Shown here one piece after another: positions 9,120 to 54,181 of a stretch of 64,000 nt of DNA. Both the position numbers and the translations under genes were made by a program. The stretch covers positions 1-64,000 of the forward strand of contig NZ_JAUSUR010000004.1 in assembly GCF_030814225.1 (NCBI RefSeq), read 5' to 3'. Each line of letters begins with the position of its first letter. Position 1 is the stretch's first letter. The DNA comes from Breznakia pachnodae. Its GTDB lineage: Bacteria > Bacillota_I > Bacilli_A > Erysipelotrichales > Erysipelotrichaceae. The notes under the pieces are model-generated. The model did not search any database. It was not told the origin of the DNA and saw only the letters and a list, made by a program, of their open reading frames with translations.

Positions 9120-9121
9120 TA

Positions 9122-10207: not shown

Positions 10208-10243
10208 ACCCTACTACACTAATTCATCTGCTAATTGCATTTA

Positions 10244-11671: not shown

Positions 11672-11680
11672 TTTACCTTC

Positions 11681-11839: not shown

Positions 11840-11855
11840 TTTTTCACCTCTCGCT

Positions 11856-11888: not shown

Positions 11889-11993
11889 AAAATCATAAAT
11901 TTTTCGAATTGTTATCATATATCACATTATGACTTTTACATTATTTTAACATATCATAAAATGACATACAATAAAGTAAATAGAGGTATCCCC

Positions 11994-37485: not shown

Positions 37486-38160
37486 CTATTTATTTTGAAT
37501 GAAACGATTTCTTTTTAACTCATTCCTGTTTTCTATTGGCATTTTTTCCATTGCATAATTAAATGTAATCACATTCATTTGTAATAAGTGGTTATTTATA
37601 AAGGAAATTGTTTGCTCTGGATATGAAAGATAACTATATTTCAAGAGCCATCCCACAGCTTTCTTTATGTGTAAATGTTCTTCATCAAGTAGTTCTTCAC
37701 ACACAGCATCGACGATTTCATAATCTACATTAATTGAAAAAGTTTGCGATGAGTGAATAAGGCAAACAGCCGCAGCTCTCTTTACATAAATACATGATGC
37801 TTTAGTCCAATTTAAAATATTTTTATATAGCAGTGGATATCTTTCAACAAACGGATTCAATACCCTATAACAATATTGGTCACATTCATACCATTCATTT
37901 ACATACTCATAAAGAAAATTCTCAAAGAAATGAAAATATTCTAAAATATATATATTTGAAGATTTAATAAATAATGTCCCAAATGAAAATAATTTGAAAT
38001 TTCCACTATCAATCATTTTTTCAAATAACATTATTTTTTCAATATCTTTTAATTTCAAAAATTGACTTTTAAATAATTTGTTTATTTTCATAAAATTGAA
38101 TTCATCTGCATTTAGTATATTACACTTTACTTTATCAGCTAATTCTTCAATATTTTCCAT
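37486..38160 (-). CDS. AlkD-family DNA alkylation repair protein-like (HEAT-like repeats)
   Basis: 224 residues. The C-terminal half carries family elements: NWTKASCIYVKRAAAVCL and EEHLHIKKAVGWLLKYSYLSYPEQTISFI, the latter matching the (R/K)KAxGWxLRE segment of AlkD. AlkD proteins excise bulky or charged alkyl bases with HEAT-like repeats. By my alignment the Asp four residues after the conserved Trp is Ser here (Trp118, Ser122), so glycosylase activity is uncertain. Its place at the end of the biosynthetic cluster suggests self-protection, as YtkR2 does for yatakemycin. Its ribosome-binding site is separated from the ATG by a 22-base hairpin. Confidence 0.75.
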   Translation of the reverse strand: MENIEELADKVKCNILNADEFNFMKINKLFKSQFLKLKDIEKIMLFEKMIDSGNFKLFSFGTLFIKSSNIYILEYFHFFENFLYEYVNEWYECDQYCYRVLNPFVERYPLLYKNILNWTKASCIYVKRAAAVCLIHSSQTFSINVDYEIVDAVCEELLDEEHLHIKKAVGWLLKYSYLSYPEQTISFINNHLLQMNVITFNYAMEKMPIENRNELKRNRFIQNK

Positions 38161-38172
38161 TTTTCAACAAAA

Positions 38173-38194
38173 ATAATTGATTAAAATCAATTAT
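38173..38194. promoter_or_regulatory. Hairpin between ribosome-binding site and start of the AlkD-like gene
   Basis: ATAATTGATT-AA-AATCAATTAT is a perfect 10-bp dyad. On the minus strand AGGAGG (38197-38202) lies before it and the ATG (38160) after it, 36 bases away. Folding the dyad would bring the site to about 13 bases from the ATG. No nearer in-frame start exists, because a stop lies two codons upstream of the ATG. Confidence 0.55.
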
Positions 38195-38215
38195 ATCCTC
38201 CTTTACTTTTATCTT

Positions 38216-39088
38216 CTAGATTATATAATAATATTTACTTAAATTAATTATTTTATCACAAAACTGAAGTTCTAATTCAAATGCTCTATTTAAATCATCT
38301 TCTAATAAATAACTTGCTTTTTTTATATATGCTTTCATAAACGAATATTTTATCTCTATCCACGTCTGAAGTAAATATTCTATATCAAATTTCAAAAGAT
38401 TCAAAAAATTAAATTCTGGAAATTTATTTAAATACATCAAAAAAGAAGCAAATAGTTCTCTTGAATTAATAATATATGTTAATGGATTATGATCAATGAC
38501 ATCAATTAAATCATTATCGTCAATTTTCGAACTTTTATTTTTATCTTTATCAGAAAGCGCACTTATCACTTCATCCAAATTTCTTAGATATTCTTTAGTA
38601 CTCAATTCAGAAAGCATTTTTTTCCATAAAACTTTTCTATCGATATCCTGTTTATTATAATAAATTTTAATCCGTTTTCTTGTGATTTTGTTAAAATCCG
38701 AAACATTAATCTTAATTCCCATTGCATCAAAATTCGAATCAAATATTTCTACAAAATTATTTAAATAATGAACAGCTAATGTATGTGGAATATGTTTCTT
38801 TTTGTAGTAACGTTTTGCCCAAAATGCATCAAATAAATCAATTTCACAGATTCGATATGAACTATCAACAATATTTAAATTATCAATTTTATCTTCTAAC
38901 GCAAATAAACTCTCCATATTTTTAAAAATCTGTTTTTCTTCAGAAAATTTTTCTTGTATTTTTATGAACAAGCTGTTATAAAATAATAAATTTACATCAG
39001 CTTCATTGATAATTTGAAAATAATTAATTACTGCTGCTAGATAACAATCCATTCCGCTGTACTTCTTGTATTTTCTTTTATTAATCAT
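38216..39088 (-). CDS. BtrH-like (C39-type fold) putative acyltransferase
   Basis: 290 residues. The N-terminus SGMDCYLAAVINYFQI resembles the start of BtrH_N/C39-like domains, where the Cys in a D-C-x-x-A/T motif is the nucleophile; here Cys15. BtrH transfers an acyl group from the carrier protein BtrI in butirosin synthesis, and this cluster also contains a carrier protein. The rest is helical without motifs I recognise, and the family link is weak. AAGGGA precedes the ATG. It lies 467 bases from the main operon and 55 bases from the AlkD-like gene. Confidence 0.45.
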   Translation of the reverse strand: MINKRKYKKYSGMDCYLAAVINYFQIINEADVNLLFYNSLFIKIQEKFSEEKQIFKNMESLFALEDKIDNLNIVDSSYRICEIDLFDAFWAKRYYKKKHIPHTLAVHYLNNFVEIFDSNFDAMGIKINVSDFNKITRKRIKIYYNKQDIDRKVLWKKMLSELSTKEYLRNLDEVISALSDKDKNKSSKIDDNDLIDVIDHNPLTYIINSRELFASFLMYLNKFPEFNFLNLLKFDIEYLLQTWIEIKYSFMKAYIKKASYLLEDDLNRAFELELQFCDKIINLSKYYYII

Positions 39089-39555
39089 TATTTGTTTCCC
39101 TTCAATTCAAGTAAGTCAATAAATATTTTAGCATGTTCTAGCTGATAAGTTTATAAAAATTCAATTAATTTTAAATGAATATAACGTTCACTTTGTTCTA
39201 TTTATTTGGTAAATCGTTACAATATAAATCATTTATCTATTCAAAAAAATAATCTTAACACCTATTAACTAAAGGTTATTCTATTCGTTTAATATTTAGT
39301 TGATTTAATTAGTTTTCCTTCGCAATTTCATTTATTTCATTTCTTCTTCAGGTAAATAATTTTATAAATCATACAAATCGAGTGATGATTATTAATCAAC
39401 CAAGATTAATTACTATTCAGATGAAACGCCTTTCGAATATAATTTATTGCTTACCTACCTTTAGCCACCAAATGACATATATAATATATTGATAACTTTT
39501 AAATTATTTCTGATTTTTTGAGCAACCTAATATATCATTTCATTTTCAAGTGGAT
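39089..39555. other. Gap between main cluster operon and the BtrH/AlkD genes
   Basis: No supported reading frame on either strand. It separates two same-strand units, so it probably holds a terminator for the upstream operon and a promoter for the downstream pair, but I could place neither with confidence. Confidence 0.4.
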
Positions 39556-40827
39556 CTATTCATGTGTATCAAATTCATTTAATTCATCTAAAATATTCAA
39601 AAAATACTTTTCATTATTTTCAGGAAATAATTTTTTTGAAATCCATTTGGAAATTATTTTAATTTGTATTTTTTCATTAGAATTATATTTATTTAAATTT
39701 GACATATATTCTTTGTATAATTTTTCATTACTTATATCACAAAAAAAATCATCGCATATCGAAAATATTATTTTATCTTTAGTATATTTTTTAAAATGCT
39801 CCACAACTTTAAGTTCAAGTTCTTTATATTTTGGCTTGTCTCTTATATTTTCTTTACATTGATCAAGAAAATCATATAATGAAAAATTGCTAATGTTAAT
39901 TTTATTCATTATGTTGTTATTCATTATGTATAACTGTTCTAATGCATAATAAAATGAAACTGCAGTAATACTACCATCATAAGCTTTTTCATAATAAAAA
40001 TTTTCATCAATAAATTTTTGTAAAGTGTTTGTTTTTAATAATAGAGGAGAGACTACTATGCCAGACACCCATGTTTGTTCTGATAACCATTGAATTGTTT
40101 CAATGAAGTTATTTATTGATAATAATGGGTTAAATCCTGGTATACCAAACAATACATTTACACTAACTCTACCCTTGTTCATAGAATCAATTAACTTTCC
40201 ACTTTCAATAATCTGCTTATTTGAGATTATTTTATTTAACCAATGAACTCTTAACCACTCATTAGCTGTTTCCATTCCAATACTAGTATTCAAAATCTTT
40301 CTCGTCATACTTTCTAATCGGATATATCTATTTTTCTCAATTGTAGAGGCCTTACATTGCACATTCAAAATCACTGGTTTTTCAGATAAATTACTAGATA
40401 TCATTTCCAACGTACTATCTGGAAGTTGAAAATTACAAAATACATCTTCAATGGCAAATTCATCAATAAACAAATCACGATATCCATTTAATAAACTGAT
40501 ACTTTCTTTTGCACATTCATTATATAATGAGATATCATTTTTCCGAAGATATTGCATTTTTGCAATCATATCAAACTTTTCACATAAAAAATTGCAAAAG
40601 GAACAACCATTAATGCTCTTTTTATTACAAGCATATGTACATCCAGAAGTAAGAATAAAAGTAGAAGAGTCATCTTGCCATTCATCAGTAGTCGATAATA
40701 AATTCATTTCATCTATTAACTCATCAAAAACTGATTGTGTTCCTTTTTTTTCGCAATCATCTAAAATCATACTAAATTTTTCTGAATCACTTTCCCACAA
40801 TTTTTCTACAATATTTGTTATAAACAT
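39556..40827 (-). CDS. Radical SAM enzyme with extended cysteine motif
   Basis: 423 residues. The cluster motif is unusual: TSGCTYACNKKSINGCSFCNF, with Cys63, Cys67, Cys75 and Cys78. It resembles the GC-x-x-x-C...GC-x-x-C arrangement of Elp3/COG1244-type radical SAM proteins rather than plain CX3CX2C. ILNTSIGMETANEWLR and VSVNVLFGIPGFNPLLS fit the later strands of the TIM barrel. It is the last gene of the main operon, 17 bases behind the dehydrogenase. Its reaction is unknown; action on a carrier-bound or peptide substrate is possible. Confidence 0.8.
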   Translation of the reverse strand: MFITNIVEKLWESDSEKFSMILDDCEKKGTQSVFDELIDEMNLLSTTDEWQDDSSTFILTSGCTYACNKKSINGCSFCNFLCEKFDMIAKMQYLRKNDISLYNECAKESISLLNGYRDLFIDEFAIEDVFCNFQLPDSTLEMISSNLSEKPVILNVQCKASTIEKNRYIRLESMTRKILNTSIGMETANEWLRVHWLNKIISNKQIIESGKLIDSMNKGRVSVNVLFGIPGFNPLLSINNFIETIQWLSEQTWVSGIVVSPLLLKTNTLQKFIDENFYYEKAYDGSITAVSFYYALEQLYIMNNNIMNKINISNFSLYDFLDQCKENIRDKPKYKELELKVVEHFKKYTKDKIIFSICDDFFCDISNEKLYKEYMSNLNKYNSNEKIQIKIISKWISKKLFPENNEKYFLNILDELNEFDTHE

Positions 40828-40844
40828 GACTAATTACCTCACTT

Positions 40845-41561
40845 TCATGTATCAGAGATATATTTGTCTCCTTCTAATTGATAAATAGCTCCCTGCTTGT
40901 TAAAGAAAACATCACTGCACATATAAATTATTTGTTTTTTAAATATATTTATTTCCATATTATTCCGCCTGCTATTTTTATTAATTGAAGATGGAATACT
41001 TGGTGGATATATTAAACTAATTGAAATATCTAACTCTCTCAATTCGCTGGCTACCGATTTTGTTAATCCAATTAAACCACTTTTTGAACAAGAATAGCAG
41101 GTATTATAGACGATGCCTTCACGTCCTCTACGTGAACCTATATTGATTATCTTTATTTTTTTATTCAATCTTAATTTTATAAAGTATTTGATAGTTAATA
41201 ATGTCCCAAATAAATTAATATTGATTACTTTATTCATTATATCAATATCTGTATACAAAAATGGAGAGTTTTCAGAAATGGCTGCACAGTTGATTAAAAT
41301 ATCAATTGGCCCAAACACTTTTTCTGCAACAATCATTAGCTTATTAACTTCAGATTTATCTGAAATATCTGCTTTTATAAAAAAATAGTTACCTTGATAC
41401 TTAGAGAAATACATTTCTGAAATATTCTTTTTTTCTTCATTTCTATAATAGTTGACAATAATCCTGGCTCCATTTTCTAAAAGTGATAAACCAATTATTT
41501 TTCCTATCTCACCTGTACCACCAGTAATTAAAACCACTTTATCTGATAAGTTCATAATCAT
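40845..41561 (-). CDS. Short-chain dehydrogenase/reductase (FabG-like)
   Basis: 238 residues with the SDR hallmarks: LITGGTGEIGKIIG (cofactor loop), INCAA (91-94), and the catalytic Ser143, Tyr156 and Lys160 (NIGSRRG..., YSCSK). It follows the carrier-protein gene with an ATGA overlap, so it most likely reduces or oxidises an acyl group on that carrier, as FabG does. The C-terminus is short and ends with a cluster-specific ...YQLEGDKYISDT. NADP versus NAD use cannot be decided. Confidence 0.87.
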   Translation of the reverse strand: MIMNLSDKVVLITGGTGEIGKIIGLSLLENGARIIVNYYRNEEKKNISEMYFSKYQGNYFFIKADISDKSEVNKLMIVAEKVFGPIDILINCAAISENSPFLYTDIDIMNKVININLFGTLLTIKYFIKLRLNKKIKIINIGSRRGREGIVYNTCYSCSKSGLIGLTKSVASELRELDISISLIYPPSIPSSINKNSRRNNMEINIFKKQIIYMCSDVFFNKQGAIYQLEGDKYISDT

Positions 41562-41794
41562 ATATATTTCTCAACAGCTTCAATTAAATCTGATACTTTT
41601 TTTATGTTTTTATAATCAATTGATTCAATTTCGATTGAAAAATGATCCTCAATCTCTATTAGTAACCTAATAAAAGATAGCGAGTCGAAAAACAAGTCAT
41701 CAACCAATGAAGACTCAATTGTCACGTTAGTAACATGTACCTGTTCTCTTTCAATACAATTCTTAATTATTTTTAAAATAGATTGTTTAACCAT
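41558..41794 (-). CDS. Acyl carrier protein
   Basis: 78 residues from the ATG at 41794 (AGGAG eight bases upstream). The phosphopantetheine attachment site is DSLSFIRLLIEIED with Ser38, and the family pattern (acidic helix II, IEIESIDYKNIKKVSDLIEAVEKYI) is complete. It overlaps the AMP-ligase gene by eight bases and the dehydrogenase by four. The ligase therefore probably loads it and the dehydrogenase modifies its cargo. An earlier in-frame ATG at 41842 lies inside the ligase gene and is unlikely. Confidence 0.92.
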   Translation of the reverse strand: MVKQSILKIIKNCIEREQVHVTNVTIESSLVDDLFFDSLSFIRLLIEIEDHFSIEIESIDYKNIKKVSDLIEAVEKYI

Positions 41795-43220
41795 AATATT
41801 TACTCCTATTTTTTTTCCCATTTTTTGTATGCTTAATTTCATTTACTAGATTAAATTTCTTAGGAATTTTATATGTACTTAAATATTTTTTACAATGATT
41901 ATATATCTCTTCATGAAAAATATTTTTATCGGAAACAATATCAGCAACTAGCAAGTTATCTTCTTCAAACACTATACAATCCATAATTTTTTTATTTTTC
42001 AAAATACACTCTTCAATTTCCTCAGGATGAATTAGATTCCCATTAATTTTAACAATATTTTTTATCCTTCCTTCTATAAATAATTCTTTATTGTGTAAAT
42101 ATCCGAAATCTCCAGTCTTTAACCATCCCTTTTGAATTACTTTATTTGTTAGTTTATCATTATATATATATCCAGCCATTACACTTGCACTTTTAAGAAT
42201 TATTTCTCCCTTTACAAAGTCTTCATTTGTAACGATACATCCATCACCATATATCCCAACTTCTACATTATCTATTGGAAAACCTACAGAATTAGGTAGA
42301 GATTTGTTCATATTGTATTTCAGCGTAGATACCCGTGGTCCTGCTTCAGTAAGTCCATATGTGATATATATTGTCGCATTTGAGAAATGATATTGAACTT
42401 TTCGCCTACTATCCTCTGAAATATAATCGCTACCAATACATACTTTTGTTAAACTACTTACTGAATGCTTTGCGTCACGTTTAATATATTCTAGTATTAA
42501 ATTAGGCGAAACCATTAAACATGTAATTTTATCCATCAAAATAGTTCTATAAAATTCAGTTGTTGTCAAAATTCTAGATTTTCCAATAACTAGTGTTCCT
42601 CCAACATACAGAATTGATAGTACCTGAGCATGCATACAGTAGGAAAAAGCCATCGATAATAATACTAGTGTTTTATCATTCATACAAAAATCAAGAGATG
42701 CCACATTTGCTTTAATATTACTAAAAATCGCCTTATTTTCAAATCCGACAAATTTCGGCAAATTTGTACTTCCAGAAGTTCTATAAACTACATTATATTT
42801 CCCTAAATCGTTAAATACATATTTATTTTTTTTAATAAACTTACCATTATCTAATATGTAATAATTCACATCCAAGTTTTGGATTTTTTGTGCCCCTTCT
42901 ATATCAGTCAATATCAAATCAGCTTGACAATATAAATAACTTTCTTCAATTTCATAACATGTACAAAAGTAATCCATCGGGACAACTGTAGCAGCAATTC
43001 CTTGAACAGCAAAATAGCTAATTATAAATTGAAATGAATTAGGGAGAAATAGTATCACACATTTTATATTGATATTCAAACTATATAATCGTGCCACTAG
43101 ACTCTCAGTATAATAATATAATTTTTTATATGAATATCTATTTGAACCATCATAGACAGCAATTTTTTCAAGTTCTTTTTTTTGGTTTATTATATCAATT
43201 ATTATATTTTTATTTGACAT
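41787..43220 (-). CDS. AMP-forming acyl ligase (ANL superfamily)
   Basis: 477 residues. Adenylation motifs in order: YRTSGSTNLPKFVGF (phosphate loop), ITYGLTEAGPR (A5), GWLKTGDFGYL (A7), EGRIKNIVKINGNLIHPEEIEE (A8) and KHTKNGKKNRSKYYG with the catalytic Lys (A10). It activates a carboxylic acid as adenylate and, given the overlap with the carrier-protein gene, probably attaches it to that carrier. Its start overlaps the upstream ligase gene by 19 bases. The substrate pocket cannot be read by eye. Confidence 0.9.
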   Translation of the reverse strand: MSNKNIIIDIINQKKELEKIAVYDGSNRYSYKKLYYYTESLVARLYSLNINIKCVILFLPNSFQFIISYFAVQGIAATVVPMDYFCTCYEIEESYLYCQADLILTDIEGAQKIQNLDVNYYILDNGKFIKKNKYVFNDLGKYNVVYRTSGSTNLPKFVGFENKAIFSNIKANVASLDFCMNDKTLVLLSMAFSYCMHAQVLSILYVGGTLVIGKSRILTTTEFYRTILMDKITCLMVSPNLILEYIKRDAKHSVSSLTKVCIGSDYISEDSRRKVQYHFSNATIYITYGLTEAGPRVSTLKYNMNKSLPNSVGFPIDNVEVGIYGDGCIVTNEDFVKGEIILKSASVMAGYIYNDKLTNKVIQKGWLKTGDFGYLHNKELFIEGRIKNIVKINGNLIHPEEIEECILKNKKIMDCIVFEEDNLLVADIVSDKNIFHEEIYNHCKKYLSTYKIPKKFNLVNEIKHTKNGKKNRSKYYG

Positions 43221-44545
43221 TCAAAGCACCTGTACTTTTCTTTAAATGGAACATTTGTCCATTTACCAACCTTTTTTACAACAAAATACACATCATATCC
43301 TAATATTTTCTTTAGATTCTCTTCCAAATATGTCTTCAATTCCTCTGAGTAAGCAATTGTTAGAGTGTTTGAAAATTTAAATATAAAATTTTCATATGTA
43401 AGTTGTATAACTTTATATCTTCCAAAAAAAATTTGATTTTTGTTTTGAAAAAAATGAATTAAATCATTTACTATATTAAATTCATATTTTTCATTTTTTT
43501 TGGACAATAAGTGATCATTCTCTCGACACCCCACAAGTTTAAATAAAAAAGGATATCCGTCTTTTTCTTTAAATCTTGAATTGGAGTCAATCCACTCTGC
43601 TAAATCTCCTAAATTATATCGGATGAGAGAACTATCAGGACTATTTAAATTTGTAATTACTGTCTCATATCTTCCGTTTGCATTAGGAATCAATTCTAAA
43701 AAAACATTTTTATCTAGCAAATGAAATAAATCATCATTTATGGAAACTCCAATAAAATTACTCTCATTCCCACTATATACATTTAAAATTTTTGTTCCTA
43801 TTTCTTTTTCAATCTTCTCACGTTGATAATTGCTTAAATATTCACTATTTACCTCAAAATAATTTATGCATTCTACTGTTTCTTTCATTTTTGAAAAATC
43901 AGAAATATAATCACATAAGCCTTCTAAAAAGGATGGCCAGGAAATAATTGCAGTAATTTTATTGATTTCACAAAAATCAATAAAATTACTATATGTTTCT
44001 GGATTCAAGCAATCTATACATGCGATATATCCATATTTTGTATACTGAAATATTGGCTCTTCACTGTTAAAAACATATTTCCTGGCTACTATAGATTCAG
44101 GAAGGACCCATACATGATTTGATAAGTCTATAATATTTTTATGCTTTCTTCTATAAATATTCAATTCTCTATAATTATTAAATATATCTGTATCACTTCT
44201 AATCACTTCCAAGGGTATTCCTGTTGATCCACTTGTTATTAATATATTTAATGATGATAATTTTAATATCTCATCTTTCTCCGCATAGTTAGAAAAATCC
44301 TTAGTTAAATTATCGTATTGTTTCTCGTTTAACATTCCTTCTCGTATAAAGTCTAGTTTATTTTCTAAATAATCCATCTTATTTGTGATTGGTATTTTTT
44401 TAAACTCTTCATAAGTGTTTATTTTATTGATTATTATTTCATTTTCTTGAAACAACTTCATATAATACTTTGTTTTTGATGCAAAATGCAAACAACTTAT
44501 GATTTGCTCTTTGTTTCTATTAAACTGTTTATGTTCAATTTTCAT
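43202..44545 (-). CDS. PaaK/CapK-like adenylate-forming enzyme, divergent
   Basis: 447 residues of the phenylacetate-CoA-ligase type. LNILITSGSTGIPLEVIRS is the phosphate loop, LNVYSGNESNFIG the A5-like motif and DSSLIRYNLGDLAEWID the A7-like motif. The C-terminal subdomain is unusual: it has no clear catalytic Lys motif and ends with Cys-containing KYRCFECQIKI. It may use another acceptor or have lost one half-reaction. It lies five bases behind a second PaaK-like gene, so the two may act on different amino or carboxyl groups of the product. Confidence 0.8.
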   Translation of the reverse strand: MKIEHKQFNRNKEQIISCLHFASKTKYYMKLFQENEIIINKINTYEEFKKIPITNKMDYLENKLDFIREGMLNEKQYDNLTKDFSNYAEKDEILKLSSLNILITSGSTGIPLEVIRSDTDIFNNYRELNIYRRKHKNIIDLSNHVWVLPESIVARKYVFNSEEPIFQYTKYGYIACIDCLNPETYSNFIDFCEINKITAIISWPSFLEGLCDYISDFSKMKETVECINYFEVNSEYLSNYQREKIEKEIGTKILNVYSGNESNFIGVSINDDLFHLLDKNVFLELIPNANGRYETVITNLNSPDSSLIRYNLGDLAEWIDSNSRFKEKDGYPFLFKLVGCRENDHLLSKKNEKYEFNIVNDLIHFFQNKNQIFFGRYKVIQLTYENFIFKFSNTLTIAYSEELKTYLEENLKKILGYDVYFVVKKVGKWTNVPFKEKYRCFECQIKI

Positions 44546-44550
44546 GTCTA

Positions 44551-46495: not shown

Positions 46496-47328
46496 AACTC
46501 TTCCTCTTCTAATATTTGTTTTGTTCTTTTAATTGTATCAATAACATCACTAACACCTTTTGTATATAAGCATGCGCATTGACCCACTCCTATTGCCCCC
46601 AATTTAAAATAATTAATACAATCCCTGCTTGAAGACACACCACCTATAGCGATTTTTGGAAAATTTATTTCTTTTGTATCCTCAAGAAACTTCAATACAA
46701 GAAATTTCATAAAATCTCCAGTCATTCCCTTTTTCTCGAATTTCCCTTCATCATCAAATTCAATAATCGGCAAACAATCGGTTACTGATACAGCATGACA
46801 ACCGCTTTTTTTTACAATTTCAACCATTCTACGATTTTTCTTCTCTTCGGTAGACAGCAATAATTTAACGATTATTGGTATTTTAATTTTGCTAGACAAT
46901 GCTTTACAGTATTCATATAGTAAAACTTCATTAAAGCATAGTGGTTCTTCTCCAAATGTTGGACAAGAGCAACATAATTCGATATATTTTACTCCGATTG
47001 CCTCCATCTCACATGCAATATTTATTGCCTCTTCAACATCCTTTGAAAAAATACTTACTATAACACGATCTAATAAATGAAAATGTTTTAATGATATTAT
47101 CCAGTCACTAAAATTGATATTGGAAAATCCATCTTTATTAAATGTCATCCCATTCTTGATTGCTATGCTGCCAGAAATATAGTCAGCTTTATCTGTAATA
47201 GTTTTGGTTGTAATATAATCAAATCCAATCTCATATAAACGTTTTATGCCTTTTATATTTCCGGAATAAGGACCAGCAGCAGCAATAAGCGGAAACGATA
47301 TATCAAATAAATTATCCTTATTATTCAT
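46492..47328 (-). CDS. Dihydroorotate-dehydrogenase-like flavoprotein
   Basis: 278 residues with the TIM-barrel pattern of the PyrD/PreA group: an early IAAAGPYSGNI strand, KYIELCCSCPTFGEEPLC in place of the usual E-L-N-x-S-C-P-N, VKLLLSTEEKK, IAIGGVSSSRDCINYFKLGAIGVGQCACLY (FMN phosphate site). The Asn of the N-x-S-C-P-N loop is missing, so orotate is unlikely to be the substrate. I infer a reductase or oxidase for a pyrimidine-like or other small ring. It overlaps both neighbours by four to eight bases. Confidence 0.82.
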   Translation of the reverse strand: MNNKDNLFDISFPLIAAAGPYSGNIKGIKRLYEIGFDYITTKTITDKADYISGSIAIKNGMTFNKDGFSNINFSDWIISLKHFHLLDRVIVSIFSKDVEEAINIACEMEAIGVKYIELCCSCPTFGEEPLCFNEVLLYEYCKALSSKIKIPIIVKLLLSTEEKKNRRMVEIVKKSGCHAVSVTDCLPIIEFDDEGKFEKKGMTGDFMKFLVLKFLEDTKEINFPKIAIGGVSSSRDCINYFKLGAIGVGQCACLYTKGVSDVIDTIKRTKQILEEEEL

Positions 47329-47782
47329 ATGTAATACTCCTAATATCTTTTTTTAACTGTTCTACAGTCTCATAATGCTTAATTTTTTTTAAATCTGTTG
47401 CACCTTTTAATAAATACGAGCAATTTTCAAACTGTTCCTTGCGACATATCATTATTATTTTTTTATTCGCTTCTAATGCCCATCCTAATTCAATACACGT
47501 ACCATCACTTCTAATTGAATAAGGATTTTCTTGTGAACCGAATATAACAAATAAATATATGTCGCAAATCTTCATAAATCTCGAATCTCGAATATATATG
47601 TCTTCTGCAGAGAAATCATCAGTTTTTTTTCCGAAATCTTCTTCTAAATGAGCTGAAAGCACTCTAAAATCATTTTTTTTAAAAAATTCAAATAAATCGA
47701 TAAATATTTTTTTTATTTCTGAATCAAATTCCCCACATTCCGTGACATATTGAATGGGTCCTCCAATATAAATGTTTTTCAC
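47321..47782 (-). CDS. Nucleoside 2-deoxyribosyltransferase-like N-glycosidase
   Basis: 153 residues of the NDT/RCL/BlsM fold: KNIYIGGPIQ at the start, DSRFMKICDIYLFVI and RSDGTCIELGWALEANKKII, with Glu98 as the likely nucleophile. BlsM and MilB, relatives in nucleoside antibiotic pathways, split pyrimidine nucleotides to release the base. A GTG at 47782 is the start, with AGGAAGG about 11 bases upstream. It overlaps the dihydroorotate-dehydrogenase-like gene by eight bases, which suggests consecutive steps on a nucleobase. Confidence 0.78.
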   Translation of the reverse strand: MKNIYIGGPIQYVTECGEFDSEIKKIFIDLFEFFKKNDFRVLSAHLEEDFGKKTDDFSAEDIYIRDSRFMKICDIYLFVIFGSQENPYSIRSDGTCIELGWALEANKKIIMICRKEQFENCSYLLKGATDLKKIKHYETVEQLKKDIRSITYE

Positions 47783-47821
47783 TCTTTTTTTACCTTCCTA
47801 TTATTGTTTTACTCTAATGTA

Positions 47822-48769
47822 TTAATTATTTTTATAATAACAAAAATCTATTTCAAAATTATTTAAAAACTCCGATGGTCTGTCTCTAATTTTACTGACC
47901 ACAAATTGAGAAGTTAATTCAGAATTAATTATTTTTCCTTCTTTTCTATACGGTACGACATCCGAACACCCTGGACTAATAATATCGATATATTCTAAGA
48001 CTTTTTTTATTAAATTAACATCTTCTCTCGATGTCATTATTATTTTTGCCCACGGACACTTACTTTTCATATTCTTTATTAACTTTATATAGTTTTCATT
48101 TTTAATTAATTTGAAATTTTCGCTATTCCCTATAACCCTTGGTAAAGATATATATATATTAGCTCCTTTACTTTTAAGTTTTTCCGCATGAATTATTAAT
48201 GATTTGAAATCTTCTTCTAAATCATTAAGTCCTACCAATATACCTATATCAACTGACTCAAAACCATGATCAATCCATTTTTCACATGTTTTATATCGGA
48301 AATCGAAATCCTCTTTGGGGCTATTTTTTATAAAGCTGTTAGAAAAAAACTTTTTATAACTACTTCTTGAATATGTTTCTTGAAATAATGATAATATTAA
48401 AACTTCGGTTTTGATTACATTTCTTCTAATATAAATTATTTCATCATCTGTCAATGCTCCAATATTAAAATAAACCTTTTTAAAGCCTATTTGTATTGCT
48501 AGGTTAATTGACCAAATAACCAAATCCAAATTATCTCTTCGCTTTCTTCCAGTAATATGCTCACCTGTTAAAATACACACCGCACTTATTTTTTCTATCG
48601 AATATATGATATTCAGTTGATCATATATTTCTTCTTTCGTTGCTGTTTTTCTAATAATTTTATTATTATTTTTCCTTAAATTACATATTTTGCACACTGA
48701 ATCACATTCATTGCTAATATATAATGGAACAAATGTCTCTTTATATGGTTTGTCACTCACTTTATCCAT
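47822..48769 (-). CDS. ThiH/HydG-like radical SAM enzyme
   Basis: 315 residues. ETFVPLYISNECDSVCKICNLRKNN contains CX3CX2C (Cys22, Cys26, Cys29) in the VPLYxSNxCxxxCxxCxFR context of ThiH and HydG, which cleave tyrosine. VCILTGEHI and the late IISPGCSDVVPYR also fit (compare CSPGSR in ThiH). It is shorter than ThiH, about 370 residues. It overlaps the upstream SPASM gene by eight bases. It may cleave or rearrange an aromatic amino acid or a peptide residue; the substrate is not predictable. Confidence 0.8.
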   Translation of the reverse strand: MDKVSDKPYKETFVPLYISNECDSVCKICNLRKNNNKIIRKTATKEEIYDQLNIIYSIEKISAVCILTGEHITGRKRRDNLDLVIWSINLAIQIGFKKVYFNIGALTDDEIIYIRRNVIKTEVLILSLFQETYSRSSYKKFFSNSFIKNSPKEDFDFRYKTCEKWIDHGFESVDIGILVGLNDLEEDFKSLIIHAEKLKSKGANIYISLPRVIGNSENFKLIKNENYIKLIKNMKSKCPWAKIIMTSREDVNLIKKVLEYIDIISPGCSDVVPYRKEGKIINSELTSQFVVSKIRDRPSEFLNNFEIDFCYYKNN

Positions 48770-49820
48770 TTAACTCCTTAATTGCATTTTCTAAATGGCT
48801 CTTTAAAATTGAGCAGTTATATTTAATTATTTTATCGCACTTTTCGCCTGACATCCTACAATTAGCACAAAACCTACCTTTGCAATATTTATATACGGAA
48901 CAGTCTCTACATTCATCTAACTTTAAATAATTTATTTCTTCTTGTACTTTATATTCATTAAATTCCTTTATTAGGTTATCAATATCTGATGATTGTTTTA
49001 CATCATTGATATGTCCCATGTAATAACCGTCTTCATCTGAAATAGGACAAGGATAAATATACCCACCTGGAGTGATTTTTATTGTAAGTTCATTAATACA
49101 ATCTGATTCTCCGCATGAATTAATTTTTGATATAATTTGTTCAATCCTATTAGATGATATTTCCGTAATACTTTTATTTTCAATAATATTTTGAATTATT
49201 TCATTTTCGATACTCACCTGCTTTTTGATAGGTGGCGCAATCTGTTTCCAACTTTTTTTTGCATTCCCTACAGGTAATAAAACCGGAAAATAGACATAAG
49301 AAAAACCATTATCTTTACAAAAAGATATCATTTTACTAACTTCCTGAATGTTTTCATTCATTATCGTCATAGAAATACCAACTTTATTTGCTATCTCATA
49401 CTTAACAATATCTTTTAAAAGCTTTTCAACTTTCACATACGTATTCTTACCTCTTATTTTTTCGAATGTTTCCTGAGTGCTGCCATCCAAACTAATTTGA
49501 ACCATCACGTTATCATTTCCAATTACCATTGACTTCAAATCGTCAATAGATAATGTAGTTCCGTTTGTAGTAATAATAACTTTAGTTACTTTTGATAGTT
49601 CACTAACTAATGTGAAAAAATCATTATGCAAAGTTGGCTCTCCACCTGTAATGATACAAGTTTCAATTCCTTTTTTTACTGCAATTTCATGAAATTTTAG
49701 TAAATCACTTGAGCTAATTTGTTTTCTTTTACTACTTTTTAGCAAATCGCTACAGTGAATACATTGAAGATTGCACTTAGATTCAATTTCATAATATATT
49801 CGTTTTGAAAGATTTGGCAT
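48762..49820 (-). CDS. SPASM-domain radical SAM enzyme (second)
   Basis: 352 residues. CNLQCIHC (Cys16, Cys20, Cys23) binds the radical cluster; ITGGEPTLHND and VQISLDGSTQETFEKIRG are core strands. The C-terminal part has many Cys (CGESDC, GYIYPCP, CRDCSVYKYCKGRFCANCRMSGEKCD), the auxiliary-cluster SPASM type used on peptide substrates. It has no N-terminal recognition domain and begins almost at the cluster motif. It lies one base behind the methyltransferase gene. Confidence 0.88.
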   Translation of the reverse strand: MPNLSKRIYYEIESKCNLQCIHCSDLLKSSKRKQISSSDLLKFHEIAVKKGIETCIITGGEPTLHNDFFTLVSELSKVTKVIITTNGTTLSIDDLKSMVIGNDNVMVQISLDGSTQETFEKIRGKNTYVKVEKLLKDIVKYEIANKVGISMTIMNENIQEVSKMISFCKDNGFSYVYFPVLLPVGNAKKSWKQIAPPIKKQVSIENEIIQNIIENKSITEISSNRIEQIISKINSCGESDCINELTIKITPGGYIYPCPISDEDGYYMGHINDVKQSSDIDNLIKEFNEYKVQEEINYLKLDECRDCSVYKYCKGRFCANCRMSGEKCDKIIKYNCSILKSHLENAIKELNG

Positions 49821-49821
49821 A

Positions 49822-50637
49822 TTATTCTCTTACTTTCCTCCACCCAACAAAGTACTCAACCATGTGTGGTGGATTAATACATTTATCAACTTCGACCAAT
49901 TTATGTTTTGGTAAAATTTCATATTCTTTTTCATCATATGATAAAGGTGAATCTAAATATTCATCTGGTATGACATCTAAATAGTCTCTATCTTTGTCCA
50001 TATTTAATTTTCCAGATATATCTTTGTATAAGTATACTGCATCCCATTTAACGAGGTATCCATCATATTCGTAATAATTTAATCTAACTGCAAAATCACC
50101 TATTTTATCATCTGCTACCTCGATATTAGATTCTATAAAAGATTCATTTATATTTACATCATTTTCATAACCAAAAACATCTGTAATAAAAACACCACCT
50201 TCTTTAATTAAACTTTTGATATTGTCCAAAGTAACAGAATAATCATCTATACTAATAGGAACCAATAGTAAAAGTACTATATCAAACTGTTCATTTATAT
50301 TCATAAAATTGTTTGCCATATTATTATTCAAAAAATCATACTCAATAAAGTTAATTTCTACATTGGATTTTCTTGCATATTCTTTTGCAATTTCAATGGA
50401 CTCTTTATTCTTTTCAATTGCAGTCACATTATATCCTAATTTAACTAACTCAACTTCATGTCTTCCTGTTCCTGAACCTAATGATAAAACTCTATTCCCA
50501 TTACTTTTCTTATATTTCTTTATATATTTATCAAGAATCTTATCAAATTTGGGATATTGGAAATACTTTTCTCTAAATAAATCAATATATTTAATTATTC
50601 CCGCAGGATAATTCACCTGCCAACTATCTTTTTTCAA
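49822..50637 (-). CDS. SAM-dependent methyltransferase
   Basis: 271 residues, class I fold. VLSLGSGTGRHEVELVKLG (50-68) is motif I; VTAIEKNKESIEIA and FDIVLLLLVPISIDD follow. The C-terminal part (PPHMVEYFVGWRK) is typical of small-molecule methyltransferases. It lies two bases behind the HemN-like gene. In CC-1065 and yatakemycin pathways a HemN-like radical SAM and a methyltransferase of this kind act together to build a cyclopropane, so the pairing may be functional. Confidence 0.87.
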   Translation of the reverse strand: MKKDSWQVNYPAGIIKYIDLFREKYFQYPKFDKILDKYIKKYKKSNGNRVLSLGSGTGRHEVELVKLGYNVTAIEKNKESIEIAKEYARKSNVEINFIEYDFLNNNMANNFMNINEQFDIVLLLLVPISIDDYSVTLDNIKSLIKEGGVFITDVFGYENDVNINESFIESNIEVADDKIGDFAVRLNYYEYDGYLVKWDAVYLYKDISGKLNMDKDRDYLDVIPDEYLDSPLSYDEKEYEILPKHKLVEVDKCINPPHMVEYFVGWRKVRE

Positions 50638-50639
50638 AT

Positions 50640-52034
50640 TTAAATCTCCTCTACTTTTACTTTTAAATAACTTTGACTAATTAAACCTTGCATTTTCTCC
50701 CCCCAAGGTTGCAATCTACATCTATTAGAAACAGAATAAAACTCCTTAGAAATGTTATCCACATAATACTTGCCTTTTTTTGTAACAATCATGCTATCAT
50801 CTTTTTCTTCTACCAAACCGAATGATTTTAATTTTTCAATTTCATTTCTATATATATTTCTAAATTCACAGTTGAATATTTCCCTGAATTCTTTGTATGG
50901 AATTTTAAAACACCTCACACCTAAAACGACATACCTACTCATTGCATCTTCGATTGTAAATTTCTGTCCTATCAAAACAGGCAAACATTGTTCAGATATA
51001 GCATTTTTATATTCTTCTATATTATGCACATTACAATATGTATTCCCATTAAATACAGAACTTGCTCCAGCACCAAGACCTATAGTTTGACCTTGCGGTG
51101 CCTTCCAGGTAGTTAATATCTCTTGTTGAATGTGTCCGTTTTTTGCATAATCTGGTTGCGCAGTATGATCCCACCCCTTACTAGTCAAGTAATCATTTAT
51201 TACATAAAACATACTTTGGTCTTCGGCCTCTGTTGGTTGTATTTTTTCTATTGCTGACTGTCTAACAGACAATTCTAAGCTATATGCACTAATTGAATTT
51301 ACTCCAATATTAATAAATTTTTCTAATTGCTCTTTTAAATCATTTATGTTTTGATTAGGAAGCCTATAAAGTAGATCAGCAGCAACTGTTTTAAATCCCA
51401 AGTTTACACAATCTTTTAAAACTCTCTCATTTTGCTTTGAAGTTTGATGTAATCCTAACGTTTTGAGTGAACAATCACAAAATGTTTGTATACCGAAAGA
51501 GACTCTATTGACTCCTATTTCTTTTAATGCAGATAAGTAATTGTAATCCACTGTACTAGGATGACCTTCTACTGTAATCTCGATTTCTCCATTGTAGGGT
51601 ATAACTTTTTTTATTTCTTGAATTATGCGCTCAATCTCTTCTGGATATAGTAGTGACGCTGTTCCCCCTCCAAAATATATAGTTTTTAAATTTAATTTTT
51701 TTGTTAATGCAGCCATTTTATACATTTTTATTTCTTTAATAATTGCTTCAAAATACCTTCCTAATTCTTTTCTACTTTTAATTATTTCTACATAAAAGGG
51801 GCACATTGGACATCTAAATAAACATGCAGGTACATGTATATAAACTACAGTATCATAAGAAGTAATTGGTATATCCGTCTCCATGAAAATATCCCGAGGA
51901 TCAAAAGCATTAGGACCATGATAAAGAGGGTAACTCCATACATATTCACGATCAACCTTTGGAAACTCTTTTATCCACTCATCATAAGTCACTAGTGGAG
52001 TAAAAAGATTATTTGATAACATTTTATTTTTCAC
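50640..52034 (-). CDS. HemN/HemW-like (class C) radical SAM enzyme
   Basis: 464 residues. VVYIHVPACLFRCPMCPFYVE has CX3CX2C (Cys71, Cys75, Cys78) in the IHVPxCxxxCxxCxF context of the HemN superfamily. TIYFGGGTASLL, RVSFGIQTF and DLLYRLPNQ are core elements that bind two SAM molecules in this group. The C-terminal HemN domain is present (about 350-460). Relatives methylate or cyclopropanate sp2 carbons of secondary metabolites. A GTG at 52034 with AGGAG upstream is the likely start. Confidence 0.88.
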   Translation of the reverse strand: MKNKMLSNNLFTPLVTYDEWIKEFPKVDREYVWSYPLYHGPNAFDPRDIFMETDIPITSYDTVVYIHVPACLFRCPMCPFYVEIIKSRKELGRYFEAIIKEIKMYKMAALTKKLNLKTIYFGGGTASLLYPEEIERIIQEIKKVIPYNGEIEITVEGHPSTVDYNYLSALKEIGVNRVSFGIQTFCDCSLKTLGLHQTSKQNERVLKDCVNLGFKTVAADLLYRLPNQNINDLKEQLEKFINIGVNSISAYSLELSVRQSAIEKIQPTEAEDQSMFYVINDYLTSKGWDHTAQPDYAKNGHIQQEILTTWKAPQGQTIGLGAGASSVFNGNTYCNVHNIEEYKNAISEQCLPVLIGQKFTIEDAMSRYVVLGVRCFKIPYKEFREIFNCEFRNIYRNEIEKLKSFGLVEEKDDSMIVTKKGKYYVDNISKEFYSVSNRCRLQPWGEKMQGLISQSYLKVKVEEI

Positions 52035-52047
52035 AGTAATTTCTCTC

Positions 52048-52539
52048 CTAATTCCTATTTTCAGTTTGTGGCAATGCCCAATCTTCAGCTACTAATTCAG
52101 GTATTGCTCTACCTAGAGTATAATAAAAAGCAACAATCTGTCCCTGATGAAAAGTTTCATGAGCTACCAAAGAACATAAATGACTTGAAATAGTTTTGAT
52201 GTCTCCAAACCAATCAATTGTAAATAGATGATCTTTTCTAGCTATAATATTAACCATCGATTCATCCAACTCTTTCATCATATTCGTTAACTCAATATAA
52301 CTAATCTCACCGTGATAAGTATCTGAAGTTAGGTCAAAACTCATATTTCCTTTTTCAATCGCCATTACATATGCTTGCTGAATGTCAATCATTTCCTGAA
52401 AATGTTTTTTTAAAGTGTTCAATATTGGCCTAGGTAAATTAAAGTCAATGTCTTCATTTTTTAAATCATTTATTAACTCAATAGTATTTTTTCTTGTCGA
52501 TTTCCACTCATCTAAAGTGAATTCTATTTCTTTAATCAT
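52048..52539 (-). CDS. DinB/YfiT-fold putative metal-dependent protein
   Basis: 163 residues from the ATG at 52539, which follows GGGAGGAA; a longer frame to 52662 would run antisense-like through the upstream hairpin and peptide gene and is not real. Four-helix DinB pattern with His46 and the HETFH pair His127/His131 as probable metal ligands, then GQIVAFYYTLG. The superfamily includes thiol transferases and, more distantly, ClbS, which inactivates the cyclopropane of colibactin. Inside this cluster a self-resistance or tailoring role is plausible. Confidence 0.82.
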   Translation of the reverse strand: MIKEIEFTLDEWKSTRKNTIELINDLKNEDIDFNLPRPILNTLKKHFQEMIDIQQAYVMAIEKGNMSFDLTSDTYHGEISYIELTNMMKELDESMVNIIARKDHLFTIDWFGDIKTISSHLCSLVAHETFHQGQIVAFYYTLGRAIPELVAEDWALPQTENRN

Positions 52540-52574
52540 AAATTTCCTCCCGTTTCCGTATCGATATTTTATAA

Positions 52575-52616
52575 AAGAAAGCATAATGATATCAAATGGA
52601 AATGATATCATTATGC
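52575..52616 (-). terminator. Terminator/attenuator hairpin after the second short peptide
   Basis: GCATAATGATATCA (52581-52594) and TGATATCATTATGC (52603-52616), a perfect 14-bp stem with 8-base loop, followed on the minus strand by TTTCTTTTAT. It begins six bases after the peptide stop codon. Partial termination would make the peptide messages more abundant than the enzyme messages downstream. Confidence 0.75.
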
Positions 52617-52621
52617 GTAGT

Positions 52622-52699
52622 CTACTTAGCCGATTGCCATGCAGCGGATTGCCAACCATCATTGTGATGCTTTGTTAAGTAGATTAATTTTCTCCACAT
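52622..52699 (-). CDS. Short basic peptide with tandem WQSA repeat, putative precursor
   Basis: 25 codons, ATG at 52699, stop TAG at 52622. The ribosome-binding site AAGGAGGTGA with eight-base spacing is one of the best in the window. The peptide starts MWRKLIYLTKHH and ends GWQSAAWQSAK: a direct repeat WQSA-A-WQSA capped by Lys. Net charge about +3. It lies between a SPASM radical SAM gene and a terminator hairpin, the usual place of a RiPP precursor or peptide scaffold. The repeat is the likely modified core. A regulatory Trp-codon leader is the alternative. Confidence 0.7.
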   Translation of the reverse strand: MWRKLIYLTKHHNDGWQSAAWQSAK

Positions 52700-52739
52700 A
52701 TATCTCACCTCCTTCTTGTATATAAAATTTATAGTTTTC

Positions 52740-53996
52740 TCAACAATCTGCATAAATTAGTTTAATCATTCTAGGTATGTAAGAATCATAGAATTCTTTT
52801 AAACACTGTTTTTCTCCATGCATTTCTTCCTGCCATTTACATCCACCTCCGCAGTAATTAATATATGCACACTCTTGACACTCTAAGTCATACTCTCTAT
52901 TCAGATAGTCATAATAATTTTCATTGAAAAGTTTGCTAGTTAAGCTTCCCACTTTTTTTTCATCAAATCCAATGTGTGAGCAACACTTATGTAAAGACCC
53001 ATCTGTGTCGAAAACCCATCTTCCGAATGATGATATTCCACAGTTCATAGAGAAAATAAAAGGTTTAATATTATACTTTCGCTTAAGATGTAAATAGCAA
53101 TCATACATTTGATTTGCTGTTGCAACCAAATCTTCATGCAAACTTTTAAAGTTTACATTTTTTTTGTTTGGGACTACAGGAAATAATCTGAACTCAATAT
53201 CGCTACTTTCAATATTTGATAGTATTTGATCTACAGCTTCTTTTAAATATAAGCGATTATCTTTATCAACATTCATTCGGATGCTAATATTTTTCTTCCC
53301 ATATTTTTTAATGTATTTATTTATATTTGCAACAATTTTCCTATAACTTCCTGAGCCATCAGGACACACTCTTCTTGAATCATGCAAAGCTGATAGTCCA
53401 TCAATTGTGATTCTATAAGAATCGATGTATGGAATTATATCTGGATGATCTAATAATCTCATTCCATTAGTTACCATAATAAATTTGGTTTTAACTGGTA
53501 GACTATTCATTTTTTTTATTAAGTATAATAAAATGCTTTTGTTTATCATTAATGGTTCACCACCATAAAAATTGAACCCAATTTCCTCCGTTTTAAATTT
53601 TTGAATATACTCTAAAAGCCAAGTGTAATAATTATCTATTATTTTTTCAGTCATAAAATGACTATCATGATTATTAAAAAGGTTATTCTGTATACAATAT
53701 GTACATCGCAAATTACATAATCTAGAAGGAACAAGCGTTACACCAATTCTCCTAGTTTCTGTGTTAAGGTTTTTATAAATATATGAAAATAAACTTTTTT
53801 CATCTGATCCATGTTTATAAATAAAAAAGCCTTTTAAAAGATATTCTCCTATATCTCCTTGAAAACCTGGGTTTTCTAAACACTCTTGTAATTTATTTTT
53901 ACTTATTTTTATTACTGCCCTAGATAATGAATTAAAAATAAGTAAATGATTTTTGTCTAATTCGTTTATTATATTGTAGCTTGTTAATTCATACAT
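52740..53996 (-). CDS. SPASM-domain radical SAM peptide maturase (first)
   Basis: 418 residues. The N-terminal 85 residues (YELTSYNIINELDKNHLLIFNSLSRAVIKIS...) are the leader segment common in peptide-modifying SPASM enzymes. The radical-cluster motif is CNLRCTYC (Cys94, Cys98, Cys101), followed by FNFYGGEPLM and YRITIDGLSALHDSRR. The C-terminal SPASM region has CGISSFG, HKCCSH, CQECAYINYCGGGCKWQ and QC. It lies between two 25-codon peptide genes and is the best candidate for modifying one or both. GAGGTGAAAT precedes the ATG. Confidence 0.92.
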   Translation of the reverse strand: MYELTSYNIINELDKNHLLIFNSLSRAVIKISKNKLQECLENPGFQGDIGEYLLKGFFIYKHGSDEKSLFSYIYKNLNTETRRIGVTLVPSRLCNLRCTYCIQNNLFNNHDSHFMTEKIIDNYYTWLLEYIQKFKTEEIGFNFYGGEPLMINKSILLYLIKKMNSLPVKTKFIMVTNGMRLLDHPDIIPYIDSYRITIDGLSALHDSRRVCPDGSGSYRKIVANINKYIKKYGKKNISIRMNVDKDNRLYLKEAVDQILSNIESSDIEFRLFPVVPNKKNVNFKSLHEDLVATANQMYDCYLHLKRKYNIKPFIFSMNCGISSFGRWVFDTDGSLHKCCSHIGFDEKKVGSLTSKLFNENYYDYLNREYDLECQECAYINYCGGGCKWQEEMHGEKQCLKEFYDSYIPRMIKLIYADC

Positions 53997-54013
53997 ATTT
54001 CACCTCATTATGC

Positions 54014-54043
54014 GAGAACTAGTAAAATTTTTCACTAGTTCTC
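54014..54043 (-). promoter_or_regulatory. Intercistronic hairpin after the first short peptide
   Basis: GAGAACTAGT (54014-54023) and ACTAGTTCTC (54034-54043), perfect 10-bp stem, 10-base loop. No T-run on the minus strand, so rather an mRNA-stabilising or processing element than a terminator. Confidence 0.6.
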
Positions 54044-54052
54044 ATGAATCAA

Positions 54053-54130
54053 TCATTCATATTGAAAATCAAACTGAAAGTTTTCATTATCTTCATCAAC
54101 GATATCTTCTATTATTAAGAAATCTTCCAT
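54053..54130 (-). CDS. Short acidic peptide, putative precursor
   Basis: 25 codons, ATG at 54130 behind AAAAGGAGGTAA with nine-base spacing, stop TGA at 54053. The peptide has ten Asp/Glu and no Lys or Arg. The C-terminus NFQFDFQYE alternates aromatic residues (Phe18, Phe20, Phe22, Tyr24) with polar ones. It is the first gene of the cluster, 17 bases behind which the SPASM enzyme region begins after a hairpin. Size, position and the aromatic pattern fit a radical-SAM-modified precursor or scaffold. Too short for routine gene callers. Confidence 0.7.
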   Translation of the reverse strand: MEDFLIIEDIVDEDNENFQFDFQYE

Positions 54131-54152
54131 TATAGTTTACCTCCTTTTTTAT

Positions 54153-54181
54153 ATTGTAAGCCCTTACATTATAAAAATCAA
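54153..54181 (-). promoter_or_regulatory. Promoter of the biosynthetic cluster with overlapping operator dyad
   Basis: Minus-strand TTGATT (54176-54181), 17 bases, TACAAT (54153-54158). The perfect dyad TGTAAG-CC-CTTACA (54155-54168) overlaps the -10, as a repressor site would. The -10 lies 23 bases before the start codon of the acidic peptide. Confidence 0.65.

Follow-up and report, generated by a model that had tools for sequence, protein, structure and literature searches.

What does a bacterial operon make that joins two peptide genes of 25 codons each to a series of radical S-adenosylmethionine (SAM) enzymes, adenylating ligases and an acyl carrier protein (ACP)? The question is raised by the window analysed here, i.e., the first 64,000 nucleotides of contig NZ_JAUSUR010000004.1 of Breznakia pachnodae, in which 19 genes, all on the minus strand, extend from the first of these peptide genes (peptide 1, 54130) to a gene for an AlkD-like DNA glycosylase (37486). 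Judging from sequence comparison, we propose with a probability of roughly 60% that the locus encodes a pathway of the kind that yields ribosomally synthesized and post-translationally modified peptides (RiPPs), in which the tryptophans of the second short peptide (peptide 2), arranged in WQSA repeats, would be turned into a small molecule of the indole-2-carboxylate type by radical SAM enzymes and partner enzymes that are shared with two further loci.

Related loci and the shared gene set

Searching protein sequences with the cluster's NosL-like radical SAM enzyme as query provided 86 relatives, 52 of which were aligned (alignment A1), while the other 34 consisted of two fusions, short fragments, some further family members and longer, distant hits (P0072-P0086). 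Two patterns drawn from A1 and applied to some 85,000 species genomes yielded two loci, L013 from Clostridiaceae bacterium M8S5 and L014, a 20.9-kb contig of a metagenome-assembled genome labelled Bacteroidetes. Eight kinds of genes are common to the window, L013 and L014, namely those for a WQSA peptide, a DinB-fold protein, a HemN-like enzyme, a methyltransferase, an MftC-like, a NosL-like, a PaaK-like and an AlkD-like protein, and on account of this recurrence the clustering exceeds chance. In the window, these genes and others with a part in the proposed pathway are located as follows:

52622..52699, minus strand: peptide 2, WQSA-repeat peptide of 25 residues, MWRKLIYLTKHHNDGWQSAAWQSAK, with Shine-Dalgarno sequence AAGAAGGAGGTG
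52565..52623, minus strand: strong hairpin 3' of peptide 2, perhaps a signal for attenuation or processing, -19.5 kcal/mol, z -8.0
52048..52539, minus strand: DinB/YfiT-fold protein with conserved H46, H127 and H131
50640..52034, minus strand: HemN-family radical SAM enzyme, best NCBIfam match HemW (TIGR00539, 191 bits, cut-off 205)
49822..50637, minus strand: class I SAM methyltransferase, encoded beside the HemN-like enzyme in each of the loci
48762..49820, minus strand: MftC/MoaA-like radical SAM enzyme with a C-terminal cysteine-rich (SPASM-like) region, TIGR03962 at 96 bits, cut-off 265
47822..48769, minus strand: NosL-like radical SAM enzyme (predicted tryptophan lyase) without the N-terminal alpha-domain
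47321..47782, minus strand: nucleoside 2-deoxyribosyltransferase-like or N-glycosidase-like protein, PF05014
46492..47328, minus strand: dihydroorotate dehydrogenase (DHODH)-like flavoprotein, PF01180
45746..46495, minus strand: creatininase-family hydrolase, PF02633, E 2e-49
44551..45768, minus strand: PaaK-like adenylate-forming ligase, present in all three loci
37486..38160, minus strand: AlkD-like DNA glycosylase, PF08713 at 77.1 bits, cut-off 21

The first-pass annotation of this DNA had named conserved gene order with both peptides in other genomes as support for a single pathway. Such conservation was found for a part of the operon. With tblastn, identities to L013 and L014, respectively, amount to 45 and 45% for the NosL-like, 35 and 38% for the MftC-like, 30 and 35% for the PaaK-like and 33 and 36% for the DinB-fold protein, to 34 and 31% for the methyltransferase (two matches in L014), 28 and 25% for the AlkD-like protein and 42 and 53% for the HemN-like enzyme (40 and 52% in a separate comparison), and in both relatives these genes are accompanied by a counterpart of peptide 2. 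The creatininase-like (40%) and DHODH-like (30%) proteins are common to the window and L013 only. For the N-glycosidase-like protein tblastn gave no match in L013 or L014; the gene directly after the NosL-like gene of L013 has a weak N-glycosidase-like Pfam match of 22 bits, below the cut-off of 28.8 bits. No tblastn match in either relative was obtained for the SPASM enzyme belonging to peptide 1, the ACP, the short-chain dehydrogenase (SDR), a RaSEA-like protein and a 290-residue protein, and the two other ligases of the window have no counterparts of their own there: the divergent PaaK-like protein (43202..44545) matches only the PaaK-like gene of L013 (22%) and the AMP-binding ligase (41787..43220) only that of L014 (E 5e-6).

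The WQSA peptides

In all three loci a small ribosomal peptide is kept beside modifying enzymes. The peptide of L013, MWKEAVKKSTSGWQSASGWQSASGWQSASGWQSAVR, which lies behind AAGGAGGG and was found by reading upstream of the enzymes, and the 59-residue peptide of L014, with the units WQSA, WQSA and WNSA, share with peptide 2 the pattern MW...(W[QN]S[AV])n, n being 2 in the window, 4 in L013 and 3 in L014. A profile of the three peptides, run against 5.8 billion proteins, returned six listed entries, of which five are convincing (P0087-P0091, E 3e-15 to 9e-3, n from 2 to 5) and the sixth, P0092 (E 6), was treated as a chance match. P0087 is identical to the L014 peptide, P0088 has four units, P0089 five, and P0090 and P0091 have two each. 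The longest contigs of three of these entries are exactly as long as those of NosL-like relatives, i.e., 127612 for P0087 and P0039, 145105 for P0088 and P0022, and 14931 for P0091 and P0007, which links these peptides to NosL-like genes; as P0087 is of the L014 type, only two of the three links are new. When the DNA of 272 genomes of the family was searched for a WQSA-A-WQSA pattern, peptide 2 was the sole match, and a match of the degenerate pattern on a viral contig (L021), out of frame with the 202-residue open reading frame (ORF) covering it, was discarded as chance. Peptide 2 is thereby the hallmark of the system and its likely precursor, a feature missing from the first-pass annotation, which had not recognized the repeat.

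A short ORF with three Trp codons in front of a strong hairpin, as seen in the window (in L013, too, a strong hairpin follows the peptide), is likewise what a regulatory leader would look like, i.e., peptide 2 might merely be a Trp-codon attenuator, the enzymes building their metabolite from free tryptophan. We consider this very improbable. The codons of the repeat differ synonymously while the residues stay, Gln, Ser and Ala being conserved along with Trp, a pattern pointing to selection at the peptide level rather than to a mere attenuator; moreover, L013 has four units and P0089 five, and in L014 an 8-bp overlap between the peptide ORF and the beginning of the DinB gene leaves no space for an intervening terminator.

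The NosL-like enzyme

The enzyme called ThiH-like in the first-pass annotation turned out to be closest to NosL. The profile built from A1 matches NosL (6htk) at E 1.5e-91, compared to 6e-33 for the HydG entry 4rtb and 8e-29 for ThiH. Among the residues that mark tryptophan lyases, the equivalent of R323 is present in 52 of 52 sequences, that of Y90 in 51 of 51 (one gap) and that of S340 in 50 of 52, while the position of the tyrosine-lyase R306 is occupied by I, L or M throughout (52/52) and the one-residue insertion occurs in no row of A1. We therefore predict from the alignment that the enzyme is NosL-like and acts as a tryptophan lyase. Two metagenome relatives, P0010 and P0014, are natural fusions of a NosL-like and an N-glycosidase-like (nucleoside-deoxyribosyltransferase-like) domain, which ties the two functions together; the N-glycosidase-like protein might remove 5'-deoxyadenosine or an adenosyl group.

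Likeness to the system that builds the side ring of nosiheptide and nocathiacin (NosL, NosN, NosI, NosJ, NosK) extends beyond the lyase residues to a HemN-family enzyme with the SAM-II residues of NocN, an adenylating ligase and, in the window, a carrier protein. According to PMC5585349, NosI loads the indolic acid onto NosJ, where NosN methylates it before NosK releases it. This suggests another route, in which free tryptophan would give an indolic acid that, after activation by the ligase and methylation through the HemN-like enzyme, is joined to the WQSA peptide, e.g., at a Ser, the product being a decorated peptide. NosL-, NosN- and NosI-like parts occurring together, with an ACP in the window, speak for it. 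On the other hand, an ACP match is absent from L013 and L014, Trp repeats would be left unexplained if free tryptophan were the substrate, the pairing of a creatininase-family hydrolase with an MftC-like enzyme suggests that a peptide is processed into a small molecule, and the WQSA peptides of the window, L013, L014 and P0087-P0091 contain no Cys, which also sets them apart from thiopeptides with their thiazoles. Further differences from the nosiheptide/nocathiacin system are the missing N-terminal alpha-domain of the NosL-like enzyme, its score of 230 against a cut-off of 400 bits, and the additional MftC-, creatininase-, DHODH-, DinB- and AlkD-like genes. All in all, we rate attachment to the peptide as unlikely, though the strongest competitor to its conversion.

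The HemN-like enzyme and the methyltransferase

The HemN-like enzyme aligns its Y65, Y120, R177, D220 and S249 with Y34, Y96, R153, D196 and S225 of NocN, and these five SAM-II residues are invariant in the HemN-like proteins of all three loci (alignment A6). On this basis the enzyme is predicted to bind two molecules of SAM and to transfer a methylene group. For the neighbouring methyltransferase, an alignment of four rows (A7) revealed no invariant His such as His138 of C10Q.

A Cytobacillus kochii plasmid (L018) carries a HemN-like radical SAM gene, a gene for an exporter of the major facilitator superfamily and a DinB-family gene consecutively (6896-10029); among its ATG-started ORFs of at least 20 residues between 3 and 10.4 kb, no WQSA peptide was seen.

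Proposed pathway

The conversion that we favour for the WQSA tryptophans would start with modification of the W(Q/N)SA units by the MftC-like enzyme. Parallels to mycofactocin biosynthesis (MftA-F) are a radical SAM enzyme with MftC as its top NCBIfam match, a creatininase-family hydrolase, a TIM-barrel flavoprotein and a short ribosomal peptide. MftA-type peptides end in Val-Tyr, whereas WQSA repeats are present here, and the scores stay far below the cut-offs for MftC (96/265 bits) and MftE (TIGR03964, 92.9/172 bits), the hydrolase being nearer to creatininase (TIGR04448, 194/235 bits). In a second step, the hydrolase and the DHODH-like flavoprotein may release and oxidize the modified unit, similar to MftE and MftD in mycofactocin formation. 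MftE, a creatininase homologue, is described as a cleaving enzyme of that pathway in PMC10885120. The NosL-like enzyme would then cut the tryptophan side chain to give an acid of the 3-methylindole-2-carboxylate type, which the PaaK-like ligase could activate, possibly by loading it onto the ACP in the case of the window, comparable to NosI with NosJ. Afterwards the HemN-like enzyme may add a SAM-derived methylene to the electron-rich indole, with the neighbouring methyltransferase perhaps finishing the methylation or closing a ring. Among HemN-family enzymes, transfer of one-carbon units to rings resembling indole is reported for NosN (PMC5585349) and C10P/C10Q (PMC6050322). For an electrophilic product, self-protection of the producer would fall to the AlkD-like and DinB-like proteins.

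In two of the three loci one operon unites an MftC-like enzyme, a flavoprotein and a creatininase-family hydrolase, a set that could also serve to make a redox cofactor of ribosomal origin comparable to mycofactocin or pyrroloquinoline quinone. The rare and patchy spread of the system disagrees with this, and the AlkD gene together with exporter genes (a multidrug and toxic compound extrusion (MATE) gene in L013, a pair of ATP-binding cassette (ABC) genes near the cluster in the window) fits a secreted product better, so that a cofactor appears highly unlikely.

A number of findings weigh against the conversion of WQSA tryptophans to a small molecule. With regard to the enzymes, the NosL family TIGR04158 has a cut-off of 400 bits, which is reached neither by the window's protein (229.8) nor by those of L013 (231) and L014 (196), and all NosL-, HemN- and MftC-like proteins tested are below the curated NCBIfam cut-offs, the tested set containing the MftC-like protein of the window alone. 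As NosL acts on free tryptophan, the NosL-like enzyme may do the same and, instead of consuming the peptide, provide an indolic acid for attachment to it. Escherichia coli HemN (1olt) matches the HemN-like enzyme at E 3e-26, compared to 4e-23 for NocN, and keeps four of the five SAM-II residues, with H replacing Y96, so that these residues do not single out class C methylases; given this closeness to HemN and the fact that HemW is the best family (HutW follows with 187 bits, neither reaching its cut-off), methylene transfer stays a prediction. By its scores, the hydrolase resembles creatininase rather than MftE, and tblastn found neither creatininase- nor DHODH-like genes in the 20.9 kb of L014. 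P0089 and P0090 match no NosL-like contig among the 86 relatives, and when the best 120 of 737 AlkD hits were compared with the same relatives, only the window's own, the M8S5 and the L014-type contigs were shared. Lastly, the system is very rare and patchy, and because of this extreme rarity just three full loci were compared.

At E 1e-40, no cluster was found beyond the window's own genome in sets of 395, 392 and 294 genomes from its class, phylum and order, respectively, which share members. As a single query the NosL-like protein led to confirmation in none of 41 stretches of genome contigs, and in viral contigs none of 26 stretches was confirmed with A1 and none of three with the HemN-like protein. 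The single NosL-like protein matched 20 of 145 relative genomes, in all but its own with 26-33% identity and mostly in longer frames, matches that are probably of the HydG/ThiH type. Listed plasmid matches are distant relatives only, at less than 60% identity, of the HydG type (8 of 8 records, some unannotated), the HemN/HemW type (25 of 76 listed) and the MftC/MoaA type (10 of 10). A plasmid from Paraclostridium sordellii (L017) has three consecutive radical SAM genes, an S8 peptidase gene and ABC transporter genes at 6770-12162, perhaps a RiPP cluster of unassigned kind.

In the literature searched, the earlier statement that no described pathway has this combination holds, as neither a WQSA peptide with radical SAM enzymes nor the gene combination was found in published descriptions, most subscription journals lying outside coverage. 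The cluster defines a rare RiPP-type family whose searchable hallmark is an MW...(WQSA)n peptide encoded next to a NosL-like gene, and it would join three enzyme logics so far known separately, i.e., mycofactocin-type processing of a peptide to a metabolite, nosiheptide-type tryptophan lysis and HemN-type one-carbon transfer; the number of repeats might be relatable to product size.

A DNA-reactive product?

In each of the three loci, no more than 10 kb separates an AlkD-family gene from the NosL-like gene, the distance being 9.7 kb in the window, while in L014 the AlkD-like ORF overlaps the NosL-like one. W90, D94 and W171 of the window's protein correspond to the catalytic W109, D113 and W187 of AlkD and are invariant in the three loci. 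AlkD-family glycosylases for self-resistance are carried by the CC-1065 and yatakemycin clusters, as stated in PMC8626424 and PMC9570651, and the likeness to these systems (C10P, C10Q, C10R5, YtkR2) includes a HemN-like enzyme with a methyltransferase and the catalytic Trp/Asp/Trp of the glycosylase. However, CC-1065 derives from Tyr-derived 3,4-dihydroxyphenylalanine, Ser and Met, whereas here a Trp-rich peptide of ribosomal origin occurs with a NosL-like enzyme, and the resemblance to C10P/C10Q lies in the described enzyme types. A product that reacts with DNA, against which AlkD would protect the producer, is possible, though supported only in part.

Against such a product speak five AlkD-family matches in the genome of the window, the position of the window's copy beyond a gap of 467 bp, and that of the L013 copy, 6.5 kb off, with genes for the MATE exporter, a Clp-type ATPase and further proteins in between. 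Nine of the listed AlkD proteins with 47-55% identity to that of the window (P0120, P0124, P0128, P0133-P0135, P0166, P0179, P0202) are on metagenome contigs of 1.5-15.5 kb that match no NosL-like contig; in view of the 9.7 kb between the two genes in the window, these contigs neither support nor exclude a link. Owing to the counter-evidence on AlkD linkage, we regard as doubtful the more far-reaching idea of a ribosomally templated DNA-alkylating product, in which the NosL-like enzyme would convert WQSA tryptophans to indole-2-carboxylates, the HemN-like enzyme and the methyltransferase would arm these, by analogy to CC-1065, with a methylene or cyclopropane electrophile, and the AlkD-like and DinB-fold proteins would protect the producer. 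If true, it would mean a class of genotoxins encoded by a gene for 25 residues and made by a route that needs neither a polyketide synthase nor a non-ribosomal peptide synthetase.

Kinship of the DinB protein with the colibactin cyclopropane hydrolase ClbS was considered but dropped as evidence, since fold comparison places other DinB/YfiT proteins closer; only membership in the same superfamily is retained. In M8S5 the operon is followed by two genes, the first of which encodes a protein weakly matching the SnoaL-like family, and by the MATE exporter gene (L013:11461-14516), and in L014 a gene for a SET-domain protein (11630-12046) overlaps the end of the AlkD-like gene.

Remaining genes of the operon and its surroundings

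The other genes of the operon are the following:

54053..54130, minus strand: peptide 1, ORF of 25 residues, MEDFLIIEDIVDEDNENFQFDFQYE, with Shine-Dalgarno sequence AAAAAAGGAGGT; hairpin 3' of the gene, z -5.1
52740..53996, minus strand: SPASM radical SAM enzyme of the geopeptide-maturase type, TIGR04280 at 138 bits, under the cut-off of 400
43202..44545, minus strand: divergent PaaK-like protein, NF045666, E 8e-11, 42 of 300 bits
41787..43220, minus strand: AMP-binding acyl ligase, PF00501, E 7e-42
41558..41794, minus strand: ACP, start taken as the ATG at 41794, PF00550
40845..41561, minus strand: SDR, PF00106
39556..40827, minus strand: RaSEA-like radical SAM protein, TIGR01210, E 3.7e-7, 30 of 212 bits
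38216..39088, minus strand: 290-residue protein without family match, BtrH-like label not confirmed

In accordance with the first-pass annotation, all genes are on the minus strand at the positions it gave, and both 25-codon peptide genes were recovered, each with a strong Shine-Dalgarno sequence and a strong hairpin behind it. From peptide 1 to the RaSEA-like gene, 17 genes follow each other, no gap exceeding 82 bp and seven genes overlapping the preceding one; the 290-residue protein and AlkD-like genes come after the gap of 467 bp. Family searches bore out most of the gene list, in which the DinB-family gene between peptide 2 and the HemN-like gene had been overlooked. Two of the three enzymes listed as adenylating are matched by their families, while the protein at 43202..44545 is weak as such and in Pfam has just a sub-threshold GH113 match. 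The BtrH-like label could not be upheld for the 290-residue protein, which has no Pfam or NCBIfam match at E 0.01 and a single-sequence structure model with a predicted local distance difference test score (pLDDT) of 36.

Peptide 1 is the probable substrate of the SPASM enzyme encoded after it. The pair resembles a small stand-alone RiPP module as known for geopeptide-type maturases, although the enzyme is below the family cut-off and lacks a match in L013 and L014. At E 1e-30 in the 145 relative genomes, the enzyme has, besides itself, just one relative with 27% identity (in G004), and the module may be a lineage-specific addition. Among the three loci, the peptide 1 module, the carrier-protein part with ACP and SDR, and the RaSEA-like gene are specific to the window, so that of the earlier idea of a hybrid between RiPP and carrier-protein chemistry the RiPP part recurs with peptide 2 and the carrier-protein part does not.

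Directly upstream of peptide 1, genes for a serine recombinase (54393-55742) and topoisomerase III (55922-58045) are situated on the minus strand, and seven ORFs tested between 58 and 64 kb of the window gave no Pfam match; the recombinase/topoisomerase region may belong to a mobile element carrying the cluster. At the other end, about 0.8 kb beyond the AlkD-like gene, two ABC half-transporters are encoded on the minus strand (33127-36656). The one that was tested is MsbA-like, and the pair could act as exporter of the product.

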